A stretch of 64,000 nt of DNA, from assembly GCF_029589435.1 (NCBI RefSeq), contig NZ_JARRAG010000002.1, positions 3,658,001 through 3,722,000 of the forward strand. Direction: 5' to 3'. Shown piece by piece: positions 18,057 to 61,172 of this stretch. The position numbers and the translations under genes are program-made. Under the pieces are notes generated by a model. That model made no database searches and was not told where the DNA came from. It saw only the letters and a program-made list of their open reading frames with translations. Source of the DNA: Paludisphaera mucosa. GTDB lineage: Bacteria; Planctomycetota; Planctomycetia; Isosphaerales; Isosphaeraceae. Position 1 is the stretch's first letter, and the number at the start of each line of letters is the position of its first letter.

Positions 18057-18917
18057 TCAGACCTTGCGCCACCCGCTTCGGCCGAAGATGAGGGTTCCGG
18101 CCAGCCCCAGGCTCATCAGCGCCCATGTCGCCGGCTCGGGGACGGCGGCCGCGGGGGCGAAGGTGGTGAAGTTGTCGAACGCGGCGGTGAGCGGCGTCCG
18201 GGCCTCGCCGTCCAGCGCCCCGACGTCGGTGGTCTCGAAATCGAACCGGAGCGATCGGGCCGCCGAGCCGAGCGAGGTCAGGTCGACCGTCGTCCAGTCG
18301 TCGCGGACGTACCAGTCCCGGGAGTCCTGGCTCGTGTAGTCGGCGAGGGTCACGTCGACCGAGCCGACGACCTGGCCGGAGGCGTCGAGCCCCTCGATGG
18401 AAAGCTTGAACGAATCGCCCAGGCCGAAGGCGCGGGCCCAGCCGTCGCCCTGCGTGATCGCCATGAAGGCGTACAGGGTGTTGGCGACGTCGATCGAGTA
18501 GGCGGACTGCCCCTGGGCCAGGGTGATCGTCGCGTAGTTCGACCGGAAGACGCTCTCCGGGGAGTACGCCACGGCGTAGTTCGACGACCCGCCGGCGCCG
18601 GCCGTCGGGACGGCCAGGTACTGGTTCATGAAGTCGGCGTTCGGGCTGGTCGGCAGGGTCTGGTTCGAGATCGCCCAGCCGTCCCAGTAAGGGCCGAACG
18701 TGTCGTCGTAATGATTGTTGAAGCCGTTGCCGTTGAACGCGAACGAGCCGTCGCCGACCGAGGAGCCGCTGGCGTTGTTGGCGTAGCTCTCCGGGGCGGT
18801 CAGGCCGGGAAAGCCCTCGAAAGTGGTCGTCGTGAGGACGTCGCCGGCGCGGGCGGCGGGCGTCGCCGAAACGAGGGCGACCGCAAGGGTCAGGGCGGGG
18901 GCGATGGCGAGACGCAT
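18057..18917 (-). CDS. PEP-CTERM sorted DUF4465 protein under cobalamin riboswitch control
   Basis: A 286-residue exported protein. The signal peptide is residues 1-24 ('TPAARA'). Residues about 27-255 match DUF4465: 'WDGWAISNQT', 'NQYLAVPTAG', 'ANTLYAFMAITQGDGWARAFG', 'DSFKLSIEGLDASG', 'LADYTSQD' and 'DWTTVDLTSLGSA...LRFDFETTDVG'. The C-terminus has a PEP-CTERM signal: 'VPEPATWALMSLGLAG' then a basic end, 'GRSGWRKV'. This predicts exosortase processing and envelope anchoring. A cobalamin riboswitch (19065-19249) lies upstream on the same strand with no other gene between them, so expression should fall when B12 is plentiful. In Bacteroidetes, DUF4465 proteins (BtuH, from memory) bind cobamides at the cell surface; an equivalent role here is inference. 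Confidence 0.85.
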   Translation of the reverse strand: MRLAIAPALTLAVALVSATPAARAGDVLTTTTFEGFPGLTAPESYANNASGSSVGDGSFAFNGNGFNNHYDDTFGPYWDGWAISNQTLPTSPNADFMNQYLAVPTAGAGGSSNYAVAYSPESVFRSNYATITLAQGQSAYSIDVANTLYAFMAITQGDGWARAFGLGDSFKLSIEGLDASGQVVGSVDVTLADYTSQDSRDWYVRDDWTTVDLTSLGSAARSLRFDFETTDVGALDGEARTPLTAAFDNFTTFAPAAAVPEPATWALMSLGLAGTLIFGRSGWRKV

Positions 18918-19064
18918 GGGCGGGACTCCAGGGAGGTGACGCGCGCGGGCGGTGGGCCCGCGCGGGGATGGGATGTCGTCGTTTCCGGTGAGTCGCTGGG
19001 AGCAGGTCGCCTGCGTACGCGCTCGCCCGGATGCTCGCGGCCGAAGCATCCCAAGCAAAATGGG

Positions 19065-19249
19065 CTCGACGGGCAGGTCTTCTGGCTCACGGCCTGGCGT
19101 CGAGCGGCCTTCCCACCTCGCGGCAGTGGCCCTGCGGCTCGCGCTTTTCGGCCGTTTACAGCGGCGGCCCCGCGCCGGAATCGCACCGGCTTCCCTATTC
19201 TTCCCGTTCTCGAAGGCCGGCCGAAGCCGACCCCGGGACTCCCGTCGAG
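19065..19249 (-). ncRNA. Cobalamin riboswitch upstream of DUF4465 gene
   Basis: Read on the minus strand, the element has the closing stem P1, CTCGACGGG (19241-19249) pairing with CCCGTCGAG (19065-19073), a perfect 9 bp. The core GGGAAGCCGGTG and a CCGCCGCTGTAAACGG-type segment follow. The conserved B12 box AGCCAGAAGACCTGCC (19072-19087) is just before the P1 3' arm. After it come a GGATGCT/AGCATCC hairpin and a GC-rich hairpin before the gene start, which may be the expression platform. The remainder of 18918-19474 shows no coding sequence. Confidence 0.93.
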
Positions 19250-56871: not shown

Positions 56872-56955
56872 CGAAGGGCCCGGGGAGTCGCGGCGGCCGC
56901 ATCGCCGCCTTCCTCTTTGCAAATCCGTCGGCCGGGAGTCTAATGAAATCGTCCG

Positions 56956-57139
56956 CCTGACGGGTGCTCCCGTCTCCGATCGCCGGGGACGGGGGAGAAT
57001 AGGGAAGCCGGTGAAACTCCGGCGCGGGGCCGCCGCTGTGATCGGCCAGGCCCCGGACGTCGCGCCACTGCCGCAGCTTGCGGCGGGAAGGCCGTCCGGG
57101 ACCGTGACGAGCCGAGAGCCAGAAGACCTGCCCGTCGGG
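56956..57139 (+). ncRNA. Cobalamin riboswitch upstream of the B12 uptake operon
   Basis: P1 is CCTGACGGG (56956-56964) pairing with CCCGTCGGG (57131-57139), with one wobble pair. The core AGGGAAGCCGGTG (57001-57013), the segment GCCGCCGCTGTGAT (57029-57042) and the B12 box AGCCAGAAGACCTGCC (57117-57132) are all present. A CGGCC/GGCCG hairpin and GC-rich leader follow before the GTG at 57273. The gap 56872-57272 holds nothing else. The downstream genes are a DUF1289 protein and btuCDF, consistent with repression by B12. Confidence 0.95.
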
Positions 57140-57272
57140 ACGCCGATCGACGAACCGGCCGAAGAGGCCGTCATCAAAGCCCACTGCCCGGCCCGGCGGA
57201 AAGGTCTGCCTCGATGTCCCCTGCCCCGAACCGTCCCCGCCGCCCGCACGGCGCAGCCGGGGGGTCGCGTCC

Positions 57273-58163
57273 GTGACGACGAGCCCCTGCCTCGGATTCT
57301 GCCGGCTCGACGCCTCGTCGAGCCAATGCCTGGGCTGCGCCCGCACCGCGGACGAGATCACCGCCTGGCGCGACGCCCCCCCCGCGTTCCTCGAACGGGT
57401 CTGGTCCGAACTGCCGGCGCGTCGCGAGCGCCTGGGCGTCGGCCTCCACCGCCTGAAGTGGACGCGCGACGGCCTGGTCGACTTCATCGCCGGCACCCTG
57501 CGGGCGGGCGGCGGCGCCTGGGCCTTCGGCAACTTCGGCGGGGCCTCGGAGTTCCGGGTCGATCCAGGCGAGGACTGCACGCGCGAGCTGATCGGCCCGT
57601 CGCGGGTCGTCGCGCGGACGGCCCGCGCCGCGATCCGATTCGACGTGCCCGAGCCGATCCGCGTCCTGTCGCGGGCGCGTCCCGGCGCCGAGCCGAGGCG
57701 TGGGCCGCTCGTGCTGGCGGTCCCTCGGGGCCGATCCCGCCCCGGCGCGAGGCCGGGCCTGGCGGCGTTCGGGCCCGACCGCGACGCGATCGACGGCCGC
57801 GACCGCGACGCCCGGCTCTACGACCTGGGGCTCCCCGCCCGCGGGGCCGCCTTCTGCCTGCGCACCGACGACCCCGGCCTGATCCGCAGGCTGGACGACT
57901 GCCTGGGGCTGGAGTGGCCCGACCTCTTCTCGAACCTCGGCCGGCGGATCGTCGAGGCGTCGCCGGCGCGGGTCGTGCTCGGCCCCATCGGCCGCGTCGA
58001 GGCCTTCGCGCCCATCGCCGCGATAGACGACCGGGAGCCCTTGGCGCCGATCCAGCTCGCGGGCGGGCGGGACGTGCCGAACGGGCTCGAGTCGCTCGAC
58101 GCCCTCGCGCCCTGCGCCTTCTACTTCCCCGACGAGGCCGCGTCCGGGAGCCCCTCGCCGTGA
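57273..58163 (+). CDS. DUF1289-containing protein, first gene of B12 uptake operon
   Basis: A 296-residue cytosolic protein. Residues about 4-32 are a DUF1289 four-cysteine motif, 'SPCLGFCRLDASSSQCLGCARTADEI' (C-x3-C...C-x2-C), probably binding zinc or an iron-sulfur cluster. The remaining 260 residues ('FNFGGASEFRVDPGEDC-like' region, 'LPARGAAFCLRTDDPGLIRRLDDCLG', 'LAPIQLAGGRDVPNGLESLDALAPCAFYFPD') form a domain I cannot name. Its place right behind a B12 riboswitch and its GTGA overlap with the permease gene suggest a role in B12 handling or use. The GTG start has a G-rich run upstream. Confidence 0.75.
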   Translation: MTTSPCLGFCRLDASSSQCLGCARTADEITAWRDAPPAFLERVWSELPARRERLGVGLHRLKWTRDGLVDFIAGTLRAGGGAWAFGNFGGASEFRVDPGEDCTRELIGPSRVVARTARAAIRFDVPEPIRVLSRARPGAEPRRGPLVLAVPRGRSRPGARPGLAAFGPDRDAIDGRDRDARLYDLGLPARGAAFCLRTDDPGLIRRLDDCLGLEWPDLFSNLGRRIVEASPARVVLGPIGRVEAFAPIAAIDDREPLAPIQLAGGRDVPNGLESLDALAPCAFYFPDEAASGSPSP

Positions 58164-59155
58164 GCGACCGCATCGTCCGCGTGCTGATCCTGCTGGCGCT
58201 CCTGACCGCCGTGGGCCTCGCCAGCCTGGCGGTCGGCTCGGTGCGGCTCTCGCCGGCGCAGATCGTCGCCGCGTTGTCCGATCGGGGCCCGTCGCGCGAC
58301 GTCGCCACGACGATCGTCTGGGACCTGCGGCTGCCGCGGGTGATCCTGGGCAGCCTCGTCGGCCTGGCGCTAGGGGCGGCGGGGGCGGCGTATCAGGGGC
58401 TCTTCCGCAACCCGCTGGCCGATCCCTACGTCATCGGCGCGTCGACCGGGTCGGCGCTGGGGGCGACCATTGTGATCGTGACGGCCGGACAGGCCGGGGG
58501 CATGGGCTTCGGCGCCGTGCCGCTGGGGGGCTTCCTGGGGGCCATGGCCGCGGCGGGGCTGGTCTACATGTCGACCGCCTGGTGGGGCCCCGCGCCGATC
58601 GTCTCGCTGCTGCTGGCGGGCTCGGCGGTGAGCAGCTTCCTGGGGGCGATGGTCTGGCTCCTGATGGTGCTGCACGACGAGGAGCTGGCCCGGATCGTCT
58701 CGTGGCTGATGGGGAGCCTGGCGGGTCGCGGTTGGCCGGCCCTGATCGGCGGCGGGCCGTACATCGCGATCGGCTTCCTGGGGCTCTGCATCCTGTCGCG
58801 GCCGCTGGACGCGCTCTCGCTGGGCGAGCAGCCCGCGCGGGCGCTGGGGCTGCCGCTGAAGCCGATCAGCGGCCTGATCGTCGCGGCGGCGAGCCTGGCG
58901 ACGGCCGCCGCGGTGGCGGTCGCGGGCGTCATCGGCTTCGTCGGCCTGATCGCACCCCACCTGGCGCGGGGCTTCGTGGGGGCTCGACACCGCTACCTGA
59001 TCCCCGCCTCCGGCCTCGTCGGCGCGATCCTCCTCGTGCTGGCCGACGACCTGGCGCGCACCGTGGCCGACCCGATCGAGCTCCCCGTGGGCGTGCTCAC
59101 GGCCATCCTGGGCGGGCCGTTCTTCCTCGTCGTGCTGAGGAGGTCCGTGCGATGA
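58160..59155 (+). CDS. btuC: Cobalamin ABC transporter permease (FecCD family)
   Basis: A 331-residue inner membrane permease with about ten hydrophobic segments. Family signatures are 'DLRLPRVILGSLVGLALGAAGAAYQGLFRNPLADPYVIGASTGSALGA', 'LAGSAVSSFLGAMVWLL', 'SWLMGSLAGRGW', 'LSLGEQPARALGL' and 'GVIGFVGLIAPHLARGFVG' (the ATPase-coupling EAA-like loop). FecCD permeases import B12, siderophores or haem; the riboswitch upstream decides for cobalamin. Its GTG start overlaps the previous stop (GTGA), and its stop overlaps the ATPase start (ATGA), so the operon is translationally coupled. Confidence 0.93.
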   Translation: MSDRIVRVLILLALLTAVGLASLAVGSVRLSPAQIVAALSDRGPSRDVATTIVWDLRLPRVILGSLVGLALGAAGAAYQGLFRNPLADPYVIGASTGSALGATIVIVTAGQAGGMGFGAVPLGGFLGAMAAAGLVYMSTAWWGPAPIVSLLLAGSAVSSFLGAMVWLLMVLHDEELARIVSWLMGSLAGRGWPALIGGGPYIAIGFLGLCILSRPLDALSLGEQPARALGLPLKPISGLIVAAASLATAAAVAVAGVIGFVGLIAPHLARGFVGARHRYLIPASGLVGAILLVLADDLARTVADPIELPVGVLTAILGGPFFLVVLRRSVR

Positions 59156-59991
59156 CCGCCGGCCGACCTCCCCTGCCCCGGCTCCGGGTCCAAGGGCTTG
59201 CCTGCGGCTACGGCCGAGGCCGGCCCGACGTCCTCACCGGCGTCGAATTGGACGTCGAGGCCGGCAGCATCCTGGCGCTGCTGGGGCCCAACGGATCGGG
59301 CAAGACGACGCTGCTGCGGACGCTCGCCCGACTGCTGCCGCCGCGCGCCGGATCGATCACGGTCGACGGCGAGGACGCCTGGAAGCGCGGCCGCGCGTGG
59401 TCGCACCGGCGGGTCGCGATCGCGCTGCAGGACGAACCGCAAGGCTCGCGTCTCACGATCGACGAGGTCGTCCGCCTGGGCCGCGCCGCGCATCGGGGGT
59501 GGTGGCTGCCGATGACCGACGAGGACGGCGCGGTCGTCGAGCGAGTGCTGGAGCGGACCCGCCTGGCCCCGATCCGCGACCGGACCGTCGACGCCCTGTC
59601 GGCCGGCGAGTGGCAGCGCGTGGTGCTGGCCCAGGCGATGGCGCAGGAGCCTCGCGTCCTCCTGCTCGACGAGCCCACCGCGCACCTGGACTGGCATTAT
59701 CAGTTCGAGATCCTCGAACTCGTCGACCACCTGGCGCGCGACGAGGGCCTGGCGGTCGTGCTCAGCCTGCACGACCTGAACCAGGCGTCGACCTGGGCCG
59801 ACCGCATCGCCCTGCTCGCCGAAGGCGCCCTGCTCTGCGTGGGCTCGCCCGAGGAGGTCCTGACGGCCGACCTCCTCGCCCGCGCCTACCGCTGCCCGGT
59901 CCTGGTCGACCGCCACCCCCTCACGGGCGCCCCGATGGTCCTCCCCCCGCCCCGTTCCCGTCGCGGGGCCGAAGAAACGAGGAAGCCATGA
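59152..59991 (+). CDS. btuD: Cobalamin ABC transporter ATP-binding protein
   Basis: A 279-residue ATPase with all ABC motifs: Walker A 'LGPNGSGKTTLLR', Q-loop 'ALQDEPQG', signature 'ALSAGEWQRVVLAQAMAQEPR', Walker B 'VLLLDEPTAHLDWHY' and H-loop 'VLSLHDLNQAS'. It powers the BtuC permease. A strong GAGGAGG precedes the ATG, which overlaps the btuC stop. The DNA beyond its stop carries an inverted pair of REP-like repeats before btuF. A second ATG overlapping its stop (59988) opens the btuF frame but is probably not the real start. Confidence 0.94.
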   Translation: MTAGRPPLPRLRVQGLACGYGRGRPDVLTGVELDVEAGSILALLGPNGSGKTTLLRTLARLLPPRAGSITVDGEDAWKRGRAWSHRRVAIALQDEPQGSRLTIDEVVRLGRAAHRGWWLPMTDEDGAVVERVLERTRLAPIRDRTVDALSAGEWQRVVLAQAMAQEPRVLLLDEPTAHLDWHYQFEILELVDHLARDEGLAVVLSLHDLNQASTWADRIALLAEGALLCVGSPEEVLTADLLARAYRCPVLVDRHPLTGAPMVLPPPRSRRGAEETRKP

Positions 59992-60015
59992 GCGACTCAA
60001 CCGTGACCCTCAAGT

Positions 60016-60061
60016 CCTTCCGCCCTCGCCAGGGAGGGTGGCCCGCGGGGCCGAATGAGGG
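60016..60061 (-). repeat. REP-like repeat, inverted copy, between btuD and btuF
   Basis: A diverged copy of the repeat unit seen at 28036-28257, in inverted orientation: CCTTCCGCCCTCGCCAGGGA at its start, then a GGCCC-GGGGCC stem and AATGAGGG. It forms an inverted pair with 60146-60192. Confidence 0.75.
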
Positions 60062-60145
60062 AGATCTCGCAGGCTCACGCTCGCGCCTCGCTCTTCGGCC
60101 GAGTCGCGAAGGTTCAGCCATGCCGGCGCCGTTCGCGAAATCCGA

Positions 60146-60192
60146 CGACCCTCATCCGGCCCTGCGGGCCGCCTTCTCCCGGGGGGAGAAGG
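60146..60192 (+). repeat. REP-like repeat, direct copy, directly before btuF
   Basis: A 47-base unit starting CGACCCTCATCCGGCCCTGC and ending GGGGGGAGAAGG, nearly identical to the copy at 28132-28178. Its terminal GGAGAAGG lies 2 bases before GTG 60195 and can serve as the ribosome-binding site of btuF. Confidence 0.85.
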
Positions 60193-60194
60193 TC

Positions 60195-61172
60195 GTGATC
60201 CGCCCCACCGTGCTCGCCTTGCTCGCCATGTTGACGGCTTGCCGCCAGGCGAAAGAGTCCGGCCCGCCCGCCGCGCCCCCCGCGCCGATCCCGGCCGTTC
60301 GGATCACGAGCCAAGGGGCAGGCTGGCCGCTGGAAGTGGTCGACTCGCTCGGGCGCAAGGTCGTCCTGCGGGAGCCGGCCCGACGTGTCGTCTCGCTCGT
60401 GCCGTCGAACACGGAGATCCTGTTCGCCGTCGGGGCCGGCGACCGGGTCGTGGGCGTGACGATGATGGACGACTATCCGCCCGAGGCGAAGGAGCGGAAG
60501 TCGATCGGCGGGATGGCGCCGGGGAGCGTGAACCTGGAGACCCTGACGGCGCTCAAGCCCGACCTCGTGCTGGCGACGGGGGGCGTGCAGCAGCCGCTCG
60601 TCGAGCCGCTCGAACGCCTCGGCCTGGCAGTGGTCGCGCTCGACGCCGAGCGTCCCGAGGACGTGGCCGCGAACATCCGCCTCGTCGGCCGGCTCGTCGA
60701 CCGAGGCGCCGAAGGCGAGGCGCTCGCGTCGAAGTTCGTCGAGAGGCTCGACGCCGTGCGCCGCCGCGTCGCGGCGCGGCAAGACCGGCGGCCGAAGGTG
60801 CTCTACCTCCTGTACGACGACCCCCTGATGACCGTCGGCCCGGGGACGTTCCTGGGCCGGATGATCGAGGAGGCCGGCGGCGACAACGTCTTCGGCGACG
60901 TCTCGGCGCGCTACCCCACGCCCAGCGACGAGGAGGTCCTCGTCCGCGCCCCGGAGGTCGTCCTCGCAACTTTCGGGCTCATGGGCGGCGGCGGCCGACC
61001 CGAGACCGAGAACCAGGCCCGCCTGCTGAAACGCCCCGGCTGGCGCGACGTCCCCGCCGTCCGCGAGCGCCGCATCCACGCCCTGGACGAGAACCTCACG
61101 ACCCGCGTCGGCCCCCGGCTCGTCGAGGGCCTGGAGTCGATCGAGCGCGCCCTGGCCCCGCCGGGCGGCTGA
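60195..61172 (+). CDS. btuF: Cobalamin-binding lipoprotein (periplasmic binding protein)
   Basis: A 325-residue substrate-binding lipoprotein. The signal 'VIRPTVLALLAMLTAC' puts the lipobox Cys at about residue 17, followed by a Pro-rich linker. The BtuF/FhuD-type fold follows: 'VVDSLGRKVVLREPARRVVSLVPSNTEILFAVGAGDRVVGVTMMDDYPPEA', 'LETLTALKPDLVLATGGVQQPLVEPLERLGLAVVALD', 'VLYLLYDDPLMTVGPGTFLGRMIEEAGGDNVF' and 'AVRERRIHALDENLTTRVGPRLVEGLE'. It would hand B12 to BtuCD. In-frame ATGs at 60120 and 59988 would translate the REP repeats into an implausible N-terminus, so I prefer GTG 60195. It ends the riboswitch-controlled operon. Confidence 0.88.
   Translation: MIRPTVLALLAMLTACRQAKESGPPAAPPAPIPAVRITSQGAGWPLEVVDSLGRKVVLREPARRVVSLVPSNTEILFAVGAGDRVVGVTMMDDYPPEAKERKSIGGMAPGSVNLETLTALKPDLVLATGGVQQPLVEPLERLGLAVVALDAERPEDVAANIRLVGRLVDRGAEGEALASKFVERLDAVRRRVAARQDRRPKVLYLLYDDPLMTVGPGTFLGRMIEEAGGDNVFGDVSARYPTPSDEEVLVRAPEVVLATFGLMGGGGRPETENQARLLKRPGWRDVPAVRERRIHALDENLTTRVGPRLVEGLESIERALAPPGG

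Follow-up and report, generated by a model that had tools for sequence, protein, structure and literature searches.

DUF4465 proteins (PF14717, IPR027828) that bind vitamin B12 are known from Bacteroides thetaiotaomicron, which encodes BtuJ1 and BtuJ2, and from beyond Bacteroidetes, including the planctomycete Mucisphaera. B12 binding has been shown for eight DUF4465 proteins, among them a Mucisphaera protein (‘Pan’), which like D5EK51 of Coraliomargarita (9HMU) comes from outside Bacteroidetes (PMC13398666). B12 binding by the family is therefore already published and is not a new result here. The accessible text of that paper names no PEP-CTERM tail, DUF1559 partner or planctomycete riboswitch (PMC13398666). 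Four hydrogen-bonding residues, Tyr146, Asn241, Thr242 and Tyr245, are conserved in BtuJ1 and BtuJ2 (PMC12751083). A different B12 binder is BtuH2, to which the H domain of BtuG1 is homologous (PMC10404256; PMC8941943); a term search for DUF4465 in the BtuH2 paper gave no occurrence (PMC8941943).

Three further systems bear on the locus described below. ZepA, a PEP-CTERM zinc exoprotein with PVC homologs, has been detected in the exoproteome of Anabaena and contributes to the supply of zinc (PMC10957091). It is nutrient-responsive and scavenges a scarce nutrient, as we propose for our protein, but its ligand is zinc and its regulator Zur, and we liken the two by description, not by fold (PMC10957091). 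DUF1559 (SBP_bac_10, PF07596) comprises planctomycete pilin-like proteins, and literature naming DUF1559 yielded no ligand or function for the family. The crateriform structures of planctomycetes carry pili-like fibres that bind dextran, and how material then crosses the outer membrane is described as unclear (PMC5394234).

Our literature search, which took in few subscription papers and no preprints, found no account of a planctomycete B12 surface regulon or its DUF1559 member, and no riboswitch-controlled BtuJ paralog that lacks the tyrosine. Searches joining PEP-CTERM with cobalamin riboswitch, or with vitamin B12 and exosortase, returned nothing relevant, and nothing was found on Planctomycetes with cobalamin riboswitch.

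The DUF4465 protein and its riboswitch

We analyzed a 64,000-nucleotide stretch of Paludisphaera mucosa DNA, hereafter the window; its features are listed in Table 1. Profile searches assigned the protein of interest to DUF4465 (PF14717, 131 bits; cut-off 25) and detected its PEP-CTERM tail with two models (PF07589, 27.0 bits, cut-off 20.7; TIGR02595, 20.8 bits, cut-off 16). A putative export signal was recognized by eye. A preliminary description of this DNA had read the product as a DUF4465 protein that is exported and bears a PEP-CTERM anchor, and these results agree with it. It had also proposed that exosortase sorting holds the protein at the envelope; the part concerning the tail is borne out by the scores above and by two exosortase matches (PF09721, 223.7 and 177.1 bits) in the window’s genome. 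The tail sets the protein apart from BtuJ1 and BtuJ2, which have a lipid anchor.

Table 1. Features of the window around the DUF4465 gene and the btuCDF locus.
Feature	Position	Strand	Detail
DUF4465 (BtuJ-type) gene with PEP-CTERM tail	18057..18917	-	861 bp, 286 aa
DUF4465 domain (PF14717) within gene	18168..18698	-	profile match
Leader, aptamer to start codon	18918..19054	-	137 nt before ATG
Cobalamin riboswitch (RF00174), full length	19055..19236	-	87.0 bits, E 4.3e-20
Second cobalamin riboswitch, before btuCDF	56945..57149	+	91.9 bits
DUF1289 + DUF6925 gene, first behind second riboswitch	57273..58163	+	domain matches
BtuC-type permease (FecCD, PF01032)	58136..59155	+	305.3 bits
BtuD-type ATPase (PF00005)	59146..59991	+	profile match
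Open frame holding BtuF-type periplasmic binding protein (PF01497)	59991..61172	+	116.2 bits

Structure comparison gave a consistent result. The AlphaFold model of the protein (mean pLDDT 83.1) was aligned with BtuJ1 in complex with cyanocobalamin (9qpm) over 209 residues at Z 27.2 and rmsd 1.8, with BtuJ2 at Z 21.9 and with B12-bound 9hmu at Z 26.0, whereas the best chain outside DUF4465 reached Z 9.6. Foldseek matched the model to a DUF4465 structure at E 2.4e-18. As modeled, the window protein has the augmented beta-jellyroll fold of known B12 binders.

The preliminary description had read a complete cobalamin riboswitch upstream of the single DUF4465 gene and proposed a covariance-model search of the region. 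That search confirmed the reading: the RF00174 match spans model positions 1–189 and its score lies well above the gathering score of 31.5 bits. BtuJ1, too, lies in a riboswitch-regulated locus. The leader region (18905–19052) folded more strongly than its shuffles (z −3.38), no intrinsic terminator-like site was found on the strand of the leader, and a sigma-70 promoter scan found 0 sites. Because the leader combines strong folding with the lack of a terminator on its strand, we infer that control of translation is the likelier output of the riboswitch.

A second riboswitch was said to control the btuCDF importer, and we did find one there, followed by btuC, btuD and btuF. The first gene behind it, with DUF1289 and DUF6925 domains, is 71–73% identical in genus relatives (L057, L070, L075), is represented by 54 residues in L066, and is possibly a B12 gene. 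Genome-wide we counted five cobalamin riboswitches, which head the window’s DUF4465 gene, another DUF4465 gene located on contig C1, btuCDF, a DUF1559 gene (L049) and a gene that we label THIRD (L050), a name used here for this second riboswitch-headed PEP-CTERM gene and its relatives. The description of the window gene as ‘lone’ therefore holds locally but fails at the scale of the genome, where the gene belongs to a conserved riboswitch set. In the window’s genome the DUF4465, DUF1559 and THIRD genes each have their own riboswitch; in several genomes they stand in a row behind one.

A riboswitch-linked gene set

We surveyed 39 genomes of the order, all from one family, and obtained 88 riboswitch matches and 35 DUF4465 matches, the latter in 25 of the 39 genomes. 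All DUF4465 matches but one (34/35) had a same-strand riboswitch upstream, 311–2398 bp from the domain; the exception was a 55-bit fragment. A PEP-CTERM tail was present on 32 of the 35. This survey had been suggested in the preliminary description, and the genome-wide linkage supports the role it proposed for the protein in B12 acquisition at the envelope. The interval between riboswitch and DUF4465 often held a DUF1559 gene, giving the order riboswitch-DUF1559-DUF4465, sometimes with THIRD following. Other riboswitch targets included metE, nrd and cobN genes, recognized by eye and not by profiles, and their presence among the targets supports the riboswitch calls.

Some loci departed from this layout. 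In L018 and L106 (G033) the DUF4465 domain continues in frame into many repeats of Ig-like appearance, and the stretch shows no PEP-CTERM tail. At L093, L097, L098 and L103 the riboswitch precedes a gene that by eye resembles an ATP-pyrophosphatase, with a BtuF-like gene nearby by profile; three of these four also have a small membrane protein that by eye resembles an ECF S component.

One orthogroup of DUF1559 genes was found behind a riboswitch in 25 of 25 genomes with DUF4465 and in 0 of 14 without it, a comparison that considers riboswitch-linked DUF1559 genes only and is uncorrected for kinship. The riboswitch search matched nothing in two of these 14, and some survey stretches end early at contig ends. 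Eight of the 14 carry a riboswitch-linked DUF1559 gene of another subfamily, so the link between riboswitch and DUF1559 is broader than the orthogroup. Overall, a DUF1559 gene lay within ~2.3 kb downstream of at least 41 of the order’s 88 riboswitches (43 profile rows less one duplicate and one second gene, from 60 stretches, five of the own genome and the DUF4465 loci). With 129 DUF1559 matches in the 8.2 Mb genome, we estimate that chance would yield fewer than 2 riboswitch neighbors.

In the DUF1559 tree, the orthogroup (26 rows from the order) and 20 DUF1559 proteins that other planctomycetes encode at their DUF4465 loci formed one clade with 99/99 support, which excluded 36 other DUF1559 proteins of the window’s genome and 15 riboswitch-linked ones of other subfamilies. 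Own paralogs were sampled by hand for this tree, and four of the 40 own rows and one motif-less order row were dropped; rows of other planctomycetes that scored below 290 bits, being incomplete, more distant or no more than prepilin-like, were also dropped, and 20 were kept by score. The orthogroup profile, whose seed was the order’s riboswitch-linked DUF1559 set, scored 292–477 on the orthogroup and at most 249 on the 40 sampled own paralogs. The regulon partner carries a prepilin motif and an H-X9-DG domain and is a DUF1559 member whose orthogroup is tied to B12.

Several arrangements involving DUF1559 genes were seen in single or paired loci. In L084 and L085 (G032, G033) a riboswitch, a DUF1559 gene of another subfamily, btuF, btuC and btuD run in one direction, and in L062 and L063 of the same two genomes riboswitch and DUF1559 gene are followed by a membrane protein gene of PepSY-type appearance (by eye). 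At L115 (G137) and at L119 and L125 (G116), the DUF1559 gene is on the other strand from DUF4465, and L115 has a separate cobalamin riboswitch for each direction.

THIRD was present in 15 of the 39 genomes, all of which have DUF4465, and stood behind a riboswitch in all 15 when positions were compared by eye. Five members scanned had no Pfam domain beyond PEP-CTERM. A THIRD profile matched the H domain of BtuG1 (8blw) at E 2.2e-4. One planctomycete THIRD protein was modeled (pLDDT 90.8), and its best structural matches were BtuH2 (Z 12.6) and the H domain of BtuG1 (Z 11.4), with the next structure at 9.6; Foldseek likewise ranked BtuH2 and BtuG1 H-domain entries at the top. A phmmer search of the PDB with one BtuH-like protein was uninformative. 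On these models THIRD is BtuH-like.

The preliminary description had merged the two families by counting BtuH as a DUF4465 protein, an assignment that we reject. The DUF4465 proteins of B. thetaiotaomicron are BtuJ1 and BtuJ2, BtuH is a separate family, and the BtuH-like protein is the product of a different gene in the same regulon. The phmmer matches of the window protein consisted of three DUF4465 chains; in the structure comparison of its model DUF4465 entries led and neither 7biz nor 8blw was among the best 50 listed, which by itself excludes nothing. Very long frames in Pirellulaceae (L129, L131–L133, L143–L145, L167; profile scores 560–607 bits) hold a BtuH-like domain together with what appear to be several DUF4465 domains.

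Beyond the order, DUF4465 was found in 13 of 294 genomes drawn across the phylum, the window’s included. The 12 other genomes held 13 loci, every one with a cobalamin riboswitch (weakest E 6.8e-6) and with at least one neighbor that is THIRD, a DUF1559 gene or a prepilin-like gene. The G080 locus runs from the riboswitch through DUF4465, THIRD, an N_methyl pseudopilin-like gene and btuF to a piece that the BtuD profile matches at 40 bits. We also compared 79 named loci, drawn from the 80 most similar to a planctomycete query, and 71 had a same-strand riboswitch ahead of DUF4465 (9 of the 71 are seeds of the model). In stretches of unequal length, DUF1559-type genes occurred at 27/32 planctomycete versus 1/46 other loci, and TonB receptors, sought with a profile built from two sequences, at 0/32 versus 33/46; L146 was left out of this tally. 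By the rule used for the order, a PEP-CTERM tail followed DUF4465 in 10/32 planctomycete and 6/47 other loci.

TonB receptors and the need for B12

The TonB plug profile matched in 0 of the 39 genomes of the order versus 208 of the 294 across the phylum. The barrel profile matched in one of the 39, as a 116-residue piece at a contig end of G006, which has neither a DUF4465 nor a riboswitch match. In the window’s genome PF07715 and PF00593 each gave 0 matches at the profile level, whereas both profiles matched the E. coli, Caulobacter and Bacteroides controls. We therefore rejected a handoff to BtuB in this genome, which differs in this respect from the setting of BtuJ1 and BtuJ2.

The same genome encodes MetH and methylmalonyl-CoA mutase. 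Its three PF07685 matches are a CobB-like protein below the equivalog cut-off, HisH, and a 23.5-bit match below the family cut-off, which makes a full de novo B12 pathway unlikely, as judged from this one family. B12 has a mass of ~1.35 kDa. The size limit of porins is ~600 Da (PMC5394234), so a diderm that needs B12 and lacks a TonB receptor would need another route, and the regulon described above names candidate parts for one.

The situation differs elsewhere in the phylum. We inspected 20 TonB-plug loci of other planctomycetes, hand-picked among the matches listed and hence not random, of which 10 had a cobalamin riboswitch at E <1e-4 and one more was marginal (0.043). This linkage makes BtuB probable elsewhere in the phylum. 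Seven of the 20 came from DUF4465-bearing genomes, and one of those seven had a riboswitch (L264, G230); G230 thus has a riboswitch-linked TonB receptor as well as the DUF4465/DUF1559 pair. A TonB plug occurred somewhere in 9 of the 12 other DUF4465 planctomycete genomes. The idea that DUF1559 replaces BtuB throughout planctomycetes is weakened by the 10 riboswitch-linked loci and by G230. The riboswitch-linked receptors, probably BtuB, are at L264, L271–L273, L275–L279 and L283, all outside Isosphaeraceae; at L283 btuF, btuC and btuD follow the receptor gene.

Proposed role and history of the window copy

We propose that the window gene probably encodes a B12-regulated, exosortase-processed, BtuJ-type envelope protein for cobamide capture, as one of the scattered genes of a planctomycete surface set for B12 that feeds BtuFCD. 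This set would consist of the DUF4465 protein, the BtuH-like protein and one B12-dedicated, pseudopilin-like DUF1559 protein. When cobamide is low, the riboswitch would leave translation of DUF4465 on, and the mature protein would reach the surface through Sec and exosortase. There the pocket of its jelly roll would hold cobamides and hand them on, the BtuH-like partner would also capture them, the DUF1559 pseudopilin would work with both proteins, and BtuFCD would import the ligand. On this proposal the DUF1559 orthogroup gains a probable ligand, B12, in a family for which we found no established function, and macromolecule uptake in planctomycetes (PMC5394234) becomes testable with a colored, assayable molecule.

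A more far-reaching version concerns the outer membrane, and we consider it a possibility on the doubtful side. In Isosphaeraceae, B12 might cross the outer membrane free of TonB: exosortase-processed BtuJ-like and BtuH-like proteins would capture cobamides, and the B12-dedicated DUF1559 pseudopilin, within a pilus-like or crateriform fiber, would carry or draw them to the periplasm for BtuFCD. The joining of crateriform fibers to the B12 regulon is our own inference. The riboswitch-controlled TonB receptors of other planctomycetes count against this version. If it were true, each of the more than 100 DUF1559 paralogs of the genome would adapt a single, general uptake machine of planctomycetes to its own solute.

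We examined the B12-contact residues by aligning a canonical planctomycete homolog to the 9fct chain, which mapped position 146 to the Y of NTTY and positions 241–245 to NTPSY. The window protein has Y149 and R240-T241-P242-L243-T244 at these sites. It shares with BtuJ1 and BtuJ2 the equivalents of the DE-helix Tyr146 (Y149) and of Thr242 (T241), but Asn241 is replaced by arginine (R240) and the HI-loop Tyr245 by threonine (T244). The second DUF4465 protein of the genome has the loop SIPGA, with alanine at the tyrosine position. By hand count, which left out the 55-bit G032 fragment, 26 of the order’s 34 DUF4465 domains keep the HI tyrosine; the losses are to Thr or Val in three proteins, namely the window copy and the two orthologs nearest to it (loops RTPLT, RTPLT, RTPLV), to Ala in the second own copy, to Ser in two and to Phe in two. 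The tyrosine was present in 75 of the 79 named loci, a figure that is uninformative because the motif itself served as the scan pattern.

A DUF4465 tree that left out the G032 fragment and G137 grouped five copies from the genus, the window’s among them, in one clade (support 99/89) with G025b as sister; G025b keeps the canonical loop and has a DUF1559 gene between riboswitch and DUF4465. The paralog-b clade has long branches, and its proteins evolve fast. Values of dN/dS were 0.40 and 0.53 between the window copy and its two closest orthologs, 0.32–0.53 among the three nearest copies, and up to 0.98 for distant pairs of the clade. Alignment and tree mark the window copy as a derived paralog whose HI loop has been rebuilt, so that a change in its affinity or in the cobamide it prefers is probable. 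Direct B12 binding by the modeled protein is likely, and we go no further than that because Tyr245 and Asn241 of BtuJ1 are replaced.

Other readings of these data differ in where the protein acts or in what it passes B12 to. It could be released instead of anchored, as a secreted B12 scavenger comparable to ZepA, whose PEP-CTERM tail and place in an exoproteome make the parallel; the co-occurrence with a pilin-like protein and BtuFCD favors capture near the cell, and we regard release as rather unlikely. Ordinary BtuB-dependent uptake, with a TonB-dependent receptor taking over B12 from DUF4465 as it does in Bacteroides, fits the receptor genes found beside DUF4465 at most non-planctomycete loci and the riboswitches at half of the TonB-receptor loci inspected in other planctomycetes. 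Given that profiles detected no plug in the order and one barrel fragment, in G006, this explanation is extremely improbable for the window protein.

Two more readings concern what the window copy still does. It may have ceased to bind B12 and have kept riboswitch and tail while taking on, within the B12 set, a structural role at the surface or another ligand. The replacement of Asn241 and Tyr245, which the window copy shares with the two orthologs nearest to it, speaks for this, as does the contrast between 26/34 in the order and the published retention of the HI-loop tyrosine across DUF4465, which at 97% is typical and not absolute (PMC13398666). The riboswitch, the fold and the Tyr146 equivalent are nevertheless kept, dN/dS to the two nearest orthologs is 0.40 and 0.53, and published pockets have 11–16 hydrogen bonds and many aromatics, such that two changes need not abolish binding (PMC13398666); we judge this loss of binding to be unlikely. 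That the gene is a decaying relic still attached to its riboswitch would agree with the long branches of the paralog-b clade and with dN/dS near 1 between its distant members. Such decay is very unlikely in view of the lower dN/dS among the three nearest copies and of the copies in five of six genus genomes, which have intact frame, tail and riboswitch; the sixth genome has the canonical sister copy.
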